DNA of 64,000 nt. It comes from Amycolatopsis australiensis (GTDB lineage: Bacteria; Actinomycetota; Actinomycetes; Mycobacteriales; Pseudonocardiaceae). The stretch covers positions 2,852,001 to 2,916,000 of the forward strand of contig NZ_FPJG01000006.1 in the NCBI RefSeq assembly GCF_900119165.1. The letters are read 5' to 3'. Positions 22,430-24,739 of this stretch are shown here, in pieces. The notes beneath the pieces were generated by a model. That model was not told where the DNA came from. It did no database searches and saw nothing but the letters and a program-made list of their open reading frames with translations. Made by a program: the position numbers and the translations under genes. Every line of letters starts with the position of its first letter. The stretch's first letter is position 1.

Positions 22430-22459
22430 GCCCCCGGGAGGCGTGAACCTCCCGGGGGC
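22430..22459 (-). terminator. Rho-independent terminator after the cutinase gene
   Basis: GCCCCCGGGAGG (22430-22441) pairs with CCTCCCGGGGGC (22448-22459), a 12-bp perfect stem with a 6-nt loop. It lies immediately downstream of the cutinase stop. Confidence 0.7.
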
Positions 22460-22464
22460 CGGGC

Positions 22465-23394
22465 TCAGCCGTTGTGCGGGCAGTTGCCCCGGTAGTCGGA
22501 GATGGCGGCGCTGGTGCTCGGGAGCGGGCAGAGGAACTGTTCGTAGCGGGTGTCGTTGTCGATGAACCGCTTGAGCCAGGACAGCGTGTACTTCGCGATC
22601 GTGGTGTTCGGCGTGTTCGGGGCGAAGTGGCTGGCGCCGCGCAGTTCCAGGTACGCCCGGTCCAAAGTGGACGGCAGGCTGGTGTAGAACGGGATGGAGT
22701 GGCTGGCCACGGGGGCGACGGTGTCCGCCTGCGCCCCGACGACGAGCGTCGGCACCTGCAGCGTCGACCAGTTCTTGTTCAGGTCCCACGCGGTCAGCGG
22801 CACGGCGGCCTGCAGCGACGGCCGCGAGCGCGCGGCTTCGAGCGTGCCGCCGCCGCCCATCGAGTGCCCGACCACGCCCAGCCGGCCGCTGTCGATGCGC
22901 GAGCGCACCGAGCTCTGCTGGGTCAGGTAGTCGAGGGAGGCGAGGAGCTGGCGGCCCCGGCTGTCGGGCTGGTCGCTGGTCGTGAGGGTGTCGATGGTGA
23001 AGACGACGAAGCCCTGGGAGGCCAGCCGCGGCCCGAGCCAGGCGATGCTCGACTGGGTGGCGGTGAAGCCGGGCGCGATGGAGATGGCCCCGAACGTGCC
23101 GGCGGTGGTGGTGGTCGGGTAGTAGATGGTGCCGCCACCGAAGCCGGAGACGGCCAGCCGCGAAACGGTGGCGGTACTGGTCGCGAACGGGCCCTGGGCG
23201 GCTTCGATGCTGGCGTTGGTGGGATCGGGGCCGCGTTCGTAGGGGTTGGCGGCAGCGGGAGCGGGAGCGGCAACACCGGTGGTGAGCGCCAGCGCGGCGA
23301 GCACCACCCCGGCGGCCTTGGCCCGCCACCCACGGCGGCGGGAAATTTTCTCACCCGAGCCAGACAGCATCGGCGGGCTGGTGAGTACGGACAT
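22465..23394 (-). CDS. Secreted cutinase/polyester hydrolase of the PET-hydrolase family
   Basis: The 309-residue protein has a signal peptide (basic RRRGWRAK, hydrophobic [17 protein letters not shown], then [11 protein letters not shown]). The mature part closely follows actinobacterial cutinases such as TfCut2 and the compost enzyme [28 protein letters not shown] and SDYRGNC at the end. The triad is Ser in GHSMGGGG, Asp in [10 protein letters not shown] and His in GASHFAPN. The substrate-site Trp (TAWDLNKNW) is kept. SHSIPFY has the His/Phe pair of ordinary cutinases, not the Ser/Ile of IsPETase, and one C-terminal disulfide is possible (FLCP...GNCP). The oxyanion-hole Tyr of LCC is Phe here (APGFTA). 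It should hydrolyse cutin-like and possibly synthetic polyesters outside the cell. Confidence 0.9.
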
Positions 23395-23525
23395 GGAGCG
23401 CTCTCTTTCCCCGGGCGGCCGAAAGCGGCCCGGAACGGACGGGCGGACCGACGGAATCGTTGCGGGACAACGGAGGACGTGCGAAGTGAGGGTGCGGGGG
23501 TAACCGCTTTCCCGTGGTGTCATGA

Positions 23526-23544
23526 AACACTTCTGGGAAATGTT
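23526..23544. promoter_or_regulatory. Imperfect inverted repeat upstream of the cutinase gene
   Basis: AACACTT and AAATGTT flank CTGGG, giving 6 of 7 paired positions. It lies about 130 bp before the cutinase start in otherwise G+C-rich DNA and could be an operator. No regulator is adjacent except the QsdR-type gene beyond the repeat tract. Confidence 0.25.
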
Positions 23545-23759
23545 CCACAACACCCGAATGGGTGAGTCGTTGGCCGACTGTGCGCTCAGTCAGCGTCGGG
23601 AGGGGCCTGTGCGGGCTGGGTGCGGTCCTCGCGGCCTGGCTCGGCGCCTGCGGGCGGGGCGCCCAGGCCGGGCTGTGCCCGCTCGGGCGCGGAGTCCGCG
23701 GGACTGCTCAGCGTCGCTGCAAGCCCTGTGCACCGCGACCGCGCACCAGCGCACTCGCG

Positions 23760-24050
23760 CCGCGAGTTGCGCCCGCGCGAGCTGAACTCGCGCGGCTTGC
23801 GCCCGCGCGGGTTGAGCCCGTGCCCGCGCCCCGCGCACCCGCGCCGCGGGTTGAGCCCGTGCCCGCGCCCCGCGCACCCGCGCCGCGGGTTGAGCCCGTG
23901 CCCCGCGCGCTCGCGCCGGGAGCTGCGCCCGCGCGAGCTGCGCCCGCGCGAGCTGCGCCCGCGAGCTGCGCCCGCGCGAGCTGCGCCCGCGAGTTGCGCC
24001 CGCGTGAGTTGCGCCCGCGCCCGGCGCACTCGCGCCGCGAGCTGCGCCCC
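23760..24050. repeat. G+C-rich tandem repeat tract
   Basis: Two identical adjacent 39-bp units (23812-23850 and 23851-23889, starting TTGAGCCCGTGCCCGCG) are followed by a partial third. From 23921 comes a run of AGCTGCGCCCGCG(CG) units whose lengths run 15, 15, 13, 15, 13, 15 bp. Because unit lengths are not multiples of three, translation in any frame would break up, which argues against a coding role. Confidence 0.75.
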
Positions 24051-24139
24051 GCCCGGTGTGCTCCACAGGCGCCAAGCGGCCCCGCGCCCGGCATCCGCAG
24101 GCCCGCACTGCGCCACCGAGCCGCGCCCGGCGCCGATGA

Positions 24140-24739
24140 TCAACCGGCGGCCGTCGGTTCCAAGGCTCCGCGGACCAGCGTGTCCAGCAGCGTCGTCGCG
24201 ACCGTCAAATCCACCGTCCGCGCCGCCAGCACGTCCGAGTACAGGAACGACTCACCCAGCCGCACGACAGCGAACGCCAGGTCCGGCAACCCCACCAACG
24301 GCGTCAACCCCGCCGCCTCCGCGTCCGCGCGGAACAGCTCCACGTGCGCGTCCACCAGGGCCGGCTGGACCGCTCCGCGCGGGTCGGTCAGCACGCGCAG
24401 CGCCACCGTCGACTCCGCCTCGATCAGCTTGCGCATGCCCTCGTTGCCCGCCACCTCGCGGCGGTACTCCTCCATCACCCACAGGCACCGCAGCCGTCCC
24501 TCCGGCGCGCGGACCGCGTCGCCGTGCTGCTCGTGCCAGTGGTCGAGTGCCCGCTGCCACGTCCGGTCGGACAGCAGGCGCAGCCCCGCGCCCATCAGGT
24601 CGTCGCGGTTGCCGACGCGGCGGAAGAACGTCGTGCGCGAAATCCCCAGCTCCGCCGCCATCCGGCCGAGGTCGAGGCGCGTGCCCGAGTACAGGAGGCG
24701 GGCCGCGTGCCGGACTATGTCGTCGGTCGAGACGGTCAC
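24140..24739 (-). CDS. QsdR-type TetR family regulator
   Basis: The 199-residue protein has a TetR-like helix-turn-helix at the N-terminus (LDLGRMAAELGISRTTFFRRVGNRDDLM, about residues 22-50, split here) and a C-terminal domain of the QsdR type (RCLWVMEEYRREVAGNEGMRKLIEAESTVALRVLT, split). In Rhodococcus QsdR controls a lactonase that quenches quorum signals. Here no lactonase gene is adjacent, so the target is unknown. The start is GTG 24739, divergent from the DsbA-like gene with 72 bp between, which probably holds both promoters. Confidence 0.82.
   Translation of the reverse strand: MTVSTDDIVRHAARLLYSGTRLDLGRMAAELGISRTTFFRRVGNRDDLMGAGLRLLSDRTWQRALDHWHEQHGDAVRAPEGRLRCLWVMEEYRREVAGNEGMRKLIEAESTVALRVLTDPRGAVQPALVDAHVELFRADAEAAGLTPLVGLPDLAFAVVRLGESFLYSDVLAARTVDLTVATTLLDTLVRGALEPTAAG

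Follow-up and report, generated by a model that had tools for sequence, protein, structure and literature searches.

Within the 64,000-nt window (the whole stretch of DNA analysed here), the gene of principal interest occupies 22465..23394 on the minus strand, where an ORF check of the window confirmed an ATG start and a product of 309 amino acids. Profile, structure and protein matches agree that this product is a member of the PETase/cutinase family of alpha/beta hydrolases; it has an export signal, is predicted to be secreted, and is called the cutinase below. The Pfam PETase profile (PF12740) matches at 417.3 bits against a cut-off of 28, covering positions 2-263 of its 263, and the NCBIfam model NF051441, bis(hydroxyethyl) terephthalate hydrolase (BdeA), matches at 549.9 against an equivalog cut-off of 520. 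The placement in the cutinase/PET-hydrolase family proposed by a first-pass annotation of this DNA is thus upheld. That annotation had named clustering with dienelactone hydrolases as the contrary outcome, but the dienelactone hydrolase profile (PF01738) reaches only 22.4 bits (cut-off 21), with no single stretch attaining an E-value of 0.001, and against the 417.3 bits for PETase this identity is ruled out.

Upstream of the cutinase and co-oriented with it lies a gene for a TetR-family regulator of 199 amino acids (24140..24739, minus strand), recognized by a match to PF18598 (TetR_C_36) and by its homologues. A 25-bp dyad, TGGAACAT-N9-GTGTTTCA (23523..23547, minus strand), is situated between the two genes, 128 bases before the ATG, and has 8-nt arms and a 9-nt spacer; on the basis of alignment and genome pattern searches, it is proposed here as a TetR operator. 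It is kept in relatives, and lies in a conserved block in an alignment of the window with eight Amycolatopsis loci. An imperfect inverted repeat had been reported upstream of the gene, and this dyad is its best candidate. The 128-nt leader that follows (23395-23522) is well conserved in Amycolatopsis, and a repeat within it, CGTTG-N5-CAACG, is exact in only three of the eight aligned relatives; in the Actinokineospora locus L016, the leader is otherwise not conserved, but the dyad is. The stretch between the TetR gene and the dyad is 81% GC, contains GC-rich degenerate tandem repeats at 23746-24054 (units of about 15, 28 and 39 nt), and matches, besides itself, only L009 and L011, over its last ~55 bases. 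No consensus promoter was found, and the 64,000 nt contain neither tRNAs nor Rfam families at the gathering threshold.

Just past the stop codon lies a GC hairpin (22430..22459, minus strand) with perfect 12-bp arms and a 6-nt loop, which may end transcription. The dedicated terminator suggested earlier therefore survives as a real hairpin with a plausible role, but the hairpin has no T-run and was not seen in seven relatives with aligned downstream DNA. Farther along, a luciferase-like monooxygenase homologue (PF00296, 21373-22365) is present downstream of the cutinase in all eight Amycolatopsis loci L008-L015, at varying distances, and DsbA-like and LacI-type genes are found on the opposite side in six of these eight, the upstream flanks being short in the other two. 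The same genome also encodes a second PETase-family protein, 54% identical to the cutinase (L002:1492-2409; G000:C6:4365726-4366649). This paralogue has APGFLES where the cutinase has APGFTAT, so that the Phe is shared; its catalytic His is followed by Leu, and its gene adjoins one for a LuxR-family regulator; the two PETase-family paralogues seem to be wired differently.

A search of 5.8 billion proteins gave 7997 scored candidates, of which 5225 were kept at E <= 1e-20 and the best 120 were examined. Among these 120, the organism names given for P0002-P0035 are Amycolatopsis throughout. P0003 ('lipase [Amycolatopsis mediterranei S699]'), one of the matches listed, shows 93% identity along its whole length and differs at 21 of 309 residues; 14 of these differences fall in the mature part and none at the 19 tabulated active-site and disulfide positions. 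These matches suggest that the host is probably an Amycolatopsis close to A. mediterranei. The ATG at 23394 is preferred over a GTG at 23553 because it is preceded by a conserved purine-rich site and because the closest relatives are 309 residues long; the GTG, which would give 362 amino acids, lies right at the dyad's edge and was dismissed. The purine-rich site, GGGGAAAGAGAGCG (23399..23412, minus strand), is a likely ribosome binding site, and is the same in the window and in all eight aligned Amycolatopsis loci. Residues 1-48 (23251..23394, minus strand) form the N-terminal export signal region, with cleavage predicted to leave a mature protein that starts near NPYERG; most of the listed PDB matches start at residue 46-50.

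The catalytic residues are encoded on the minus strand at 22861..22863 (Ser178, in GHSMG), 22723..22725 (Asp224) and 22627..22629 (His256), and their numbers equal those of AML, a secreted Amycolatopsis enzyme (PMC7851449). A residue table was compiled for 87 loci, of which 82 had a match at E <= 1e-60; the five without one (L003-L007) are distant hydrolases from the same genome, and 81 remain once the window itself is removed. Ser178, Asp224, His256, Met179, Trp203, Cys289 and Cys305 are invariant in all 81. The two cysteines, both encoded within 22480..22530 (minus strand), are the only ones in the protein, and a C-terminal disulfide between their counterparts has been modelled for AML. The first-pass reading of an intact Ser-Asp-His triad and an ordinary cutinase-type His/Phe subsite (H232, F236) is borne out, and both cysteines of its C-terminal disulfide are present. 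As generally understood, type I cutinase-like PET hydrolases have the triad in a GHSMG context, a His and Phe subsite and a single C-terminal disulfide, and type II PETases, such as IsPETase, have a second disulfide near the active site. With S178, D224, H256, H232, F236, C289 and C305 all present and only two cysteines available, the cutinase agrees with type I, where AML has also been placed (PMC7851449), and not with type II.

Among the PDB matches listed, PET40 (8a2c) is the closest solved structure and a Streptomyces exfoliatus lipase (1jfr) the second closest. An AlphaFold model built from 64 sequences has a mean pLDDT of 82.9, with residues 1-47 below 50, and superposes on 8a2c with an rmsd of 1.2 A over 260 columns at 90% identity; an earlier model from 26 sequences (pLDDT 60.4) was set aside. 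Beside the clamp residue Trp203, the cutinase has Asp204 (codon 22783..22785, minus strand), which is uncommon in the family: of the 81 loci, 67 have Asn at this position and 12 have His, with Asp and Ser occurring once each, and Asp occurs in 10 of 121 proteins (the query plus the best 120 of 5225), the query and P0003 among them. Judging from the correspondence of IsPETase W185 with PHL7 W156 and Trp203, Asp204 is probably equivalent to IsPETase D186, a residue named in PMC10975908.

Phe110 (codon 23065..23067, minus strand) stands at the oxyanion-hole/aromatic-clamp position, and had been presented as a Tyr-to-Phe change in the oxyanion region of a new family member. The residue table confirms the Phe, but it is neither rare nor new. 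In the set of 121 proteins, comprising the query and the best 120 of 5225, Phe occurs in 72 and Tyr in 49; with the window itself left out, Phe is found at 51 of 81 loci and Tyr at 30. The residue is also already in print. In AML, Phe110 and Met179 were described as oxyanion residues acting via their amide backbones, and Phe110 was set against the Tyr of IsPETase and TfCut2 with the suggestion that it might be important (PMC7851449). PHL7 carries F63 at the equivalent position, and its oxyanion hole is formed from the backbone nitrogens of F63 and M132 (PMC10076380). Backbone nitrogens make the hole, and the side chain belongs to the aromatic clamp. AML Phe110, PHL7 F63 and the frequency of Phe together rule out the substitution as a novelty, and position 110 is best described as an ordinary aromatic-clamp site at which Phe and Tyr are both common. 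It could still be that Phe110 makes a functionally distinct oxyanion variant with an altered rate or substrate choice; AML hydrolysed neither PET nor PLA, and its authors offer Phe110 as a possible reason (PMC7851449). However, PHL7 is a strong PET hydrolase with Phe at this site, and after 4 h its F63Y variant was only slightly reduced, while F63A fell to 16% (PMC10076380). PET40 has Phe as well, yet frees TPA from PET (PMC9888244). Given also the 51 of 81 loci with Phe, a distinct role of this kind appears very unlikely.

The activity of the enzyme can be anticipated from its relatives. AML is reported to prefer C8 esters and to hydrolyse PCL and PBS polymer rapidly, but not PLA, and its hydrolysis of PET was not detectable after 96 h at 30 C (PMC7851449). 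For PET40, 2.74 uM TPA was obtained from PET after 20 h at 40 C, as compared to 18.99 for IsPETase and 6.68 for LCC (PMC9888244). By analogy, the cutinase is expected to act like AML, with PET hydrolysis that is weak or undetectable at moderate temperature. As an orthologue of AML and PET40, it would be exported, would adopt a lid-less alpha/beta hydrolase fold, and would cleave aliphatic polyesters and medium-chain esters via Ser178-Asp224-His256. The oxyanion would be held by the backbone NH groups of Phe110 and Met179, with Phe110 and Trp203 as the aromatic clamp, and the natural role is probably the scavenging of plant cutin or lipids. In these respects, the cutinase is an ordinary close orthologue of a well-studied enzyme, whose headline residue had been published before, and the regulatory part of this analysis outweighs the enzyme part in importance.

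The dyad was searched for as TGRAACAY-N9-RTGTTYCA. Among 80 named loci, the exact pattern is present in 12, and these are exactly the 12 in which a homologue of the TetR gene (24140-24739) lies beside the cutinase. In ten of them (eight Amycolatopsis and two Actinokineospora), TetR, dyad and cutinase follow one another in the same direction. In Amycolatopsis keratiniphila (L085) and A. roodepoortensis (L087), the cutinase is divergent from TetR, and the dyad is located between TetR and a LuxR/LAL gene. Relaxing the pattern brings in background: L087 has a one-mismatch match inside the coding sequence of its cutinase, and L085 and L086 have two-mismatch matches inside theirs. As for regulators near the 80 named loci, 57 have a LAL/LuxR homologue without TetR, 10 have TetR only, two have both and 11 have neither, counting LAL/LuxR homologues at E <= 1e-10 (30-46% identity) and with several flanks short enough that regulators may be missed. 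A LuxR/LAL homologue is thus nearby in 57 of the 68 named loci that lack TetR, and the exact dyad is absent from all 57.

The window's own genome (G000) contains a single exact match to the pattern; four two-mismatch sites come next, and these are background since the reversed pattern gives three. Exactly one exact dyad is found in each of 41 of 80 same-genus genomes, and none is found in any of the 80 with the reversed pattern; these genomes were taken as Amycolatopsis and probably overlap the named loci, and the TetR-positive loci are related, so that the counts are not independent. Forty of the 41 dyads lie beside a TetR gene and within 800 bp of a cutinase match (distances computed from the best 48 of 90 cutinase matches). 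In 24 of the 40, which have the window's arrangement, the dyad is 129-132 bp before the cutinase start, and in the other 16 it is 751-786 bp from the cutinase, on the far side of a divergent TetR gene. TetR homologues at E <= 1e-30 are present in 46 of the 80 genomes, 40 of these being the same genomes that have an exact dyad by the cutinase. Four more genomes with both genes (G150, G158, G196 and G200) have a one-mismatch dyad, and every same-genus TetR-cutinase locus therefore carries the dyad (44 of 44; 40 exact and four with one mismatch). In G090 and G217, which have TetR and no adjacent cutinase, no dyad within four mismatches was found in the stretch examined. An exact dyad occurs in one of the 34 genomes without TetR (G156, L110), where the surrounding 3 kb contain neither TetR nor a cutinase, and in none of the ten genomes that have a cutinase match (E <= 1e-60) and no TetR. 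A Fisher test on these counts (40/6 vs 1/33) gives p = 3.6e-15, uncorrected for relatedness. Across the 24 genomes arranged like the window, anything from 48 to 595 bp separates the end of the TetR match from the dyad, whereas the spacing between dyad and cutinase start is fixed; this links the dyad with the promoter region of the cutinase and not with the 3' end of TetR.

Beyond the genus, a set of 150 genomes of the order contains TetR homologues in 15 genomes, at 16 loci including the window's own. Six of the other 15 loci combine TetR, cutinase and an exact dyad. L101, from another family, has the cutinase first and TetR second, with a copy of the dyad at two mismatches upstream of the cutinase. 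At the other eight loci, the DNA examined contains no cutinase match and no dyad at up to two mismatches. Some of the genomes in this set recur in the genus set. TetR genes away from a cutinase, which occur at these eight of 15 order loci and in two of the 46 genus genomes (one shared), have no dyad. The earlier suggestion of a separately controlled gene is probably correct.

At 20 of the 44 TetR-cutinase loci with a dyad, the dyad does not precede the cutinase. Eleven of these have been verified to place it directly before a LuxR/LAL gene, and three more (G203, G206 and G219) presumably share this arrangement. In the remaining six (G150, G152, G158, G172, G196 and G200), it precedes an AMP-binding acyl-CoA-ligase-type gene, identified by Pfam PF00501 on the G152 copy. 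A LAL-type homologue follows the ligase in G152 and G172, and the other four stretches end too early. In L201 (1532-5980), TetR, dyad, acyl-CoA-ligase-type gene and LAL-type homologue occur in a row, divergent from the cutinase; this arrangement is possibly an older form of the module. The window's genome also encodes a ligase relative (69%) and a LAL relative (46%), both far from the window.

Comparison of these loci makes it most likely that the dyad is the operator of the TetR protein encoded at 24140-24739. It may instead be the site of another regulator, such as a LuxR/LAL protein, and travel with TetR by linkage. There is precedent in Streptomyces, where LipR, a LuxR-family activator encoded beside lipA, binds upstream of lipA (PMC12134079), and the dyad does lie directly before a LAL gene in the 11 verified same-genus loci. 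This explanation is, however, rather unlikely: the ten named loci that have TetR and no LAL match in the DNA examined (L008-L017) all have the dyad, and no exact copy is found at any of the 57 with a LAL match and no TetR. A terminator or RNA element at the 3' end of TetR is highly improbable. The dyad is indeed located 3' of TetR at every one of the 44 same-genus loci, and at 16 of these the TetR match ends 12-42 bp away from it, but its arms are AT-rich, it has no T-run, its spacing in 24 genomes is fixed with respect to the cutinase start and not to TetR, and in L101, where the gene order is cutinase then TetR, the two-mismatch copy is still found upstream of the cutinase.

The reading favoured here, with a probability of roughly 0.7, is that the window encodes an AML/PET40-type cutinase orthologue, with predicted export and substrates, that is controlled by the adjacent TetR protein via the putative dyad operator. 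A TetR dimer would bind the dyad and repress the cutinase, and a breakdown product would release it; in other species the dyad is followed by the ligase gene, which points, speculatively, to a fatty-acid-type signal. A broader model is also conceivable, although it falls somewhat short of an even bet: polyester-cleaving cutinases of Amycolatopsis and Actinokineospora may be under a dedicated TetR repressor that has just one exact operator per genome, the operator having moved in evolution between the front of the acyl-CoA ligase and/or LuxR/LAL gene and the front of the cutinase, in a system that replaces LipR-type activation as found in Streptomyces. In that case, the ligand of TetR might be a product of cutin or polyester breakdown, and this protein would serve as a natural sensor of polyester hydrolysis. 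No report of TetR control of such a cutinase was found among the best matches in the open-licence literature, and the regulation and induction of PET-hydrolysing enzymes have been described as little documented (PMC11169514). With a one-site TetR/operator candidate next to the cutinase, the question of regulation becomes directly testable, and a sensor for polyester breakdown products could result.

Several characterized systems resemble this one in part. One is AML (ADJ49206.1). We infer from name, length and residue numbers that P0003 is AML; it shares Phe110, Ser178, Met179, Trp203, Asp224 and His256 at the AML numbers, and the residues at which it differs from the cutinase all lie outside the active site. 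The Streptomyces exfoliatus lipase 1jfr, which we take to be the lipA product, is 75% identical, with the motif SPGFTA. PET40, the closest structural match, has the same APGFTA motif as the cutinase, but differs in having Asn at the Asp204 position and in its reported activity on PET (PMC9888244). PHL7 (68% identity) also has Phe at the oxyanion/clamp position; in contrast to the cutinase, it originates from a compost metagenome and is active at 70 C, and the residue after its catalytic His is Leu (L210; PMC9303343) rather than Phe. The BHET esterases LipA/BdeA of Streptomyces are covered by the same equivalog, NF051441, and ScLipA is 78% identical to PET40 (PMC11169514), but these enzymes belong to another host genus and to a different regulator neighbourhood. 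In Streptomyces, the gene for the LuxR-family activator LipR is located downstream of lipA (PMC12134079), whereas the cutinase described here has a TetR gene upstream, together with the dyad.
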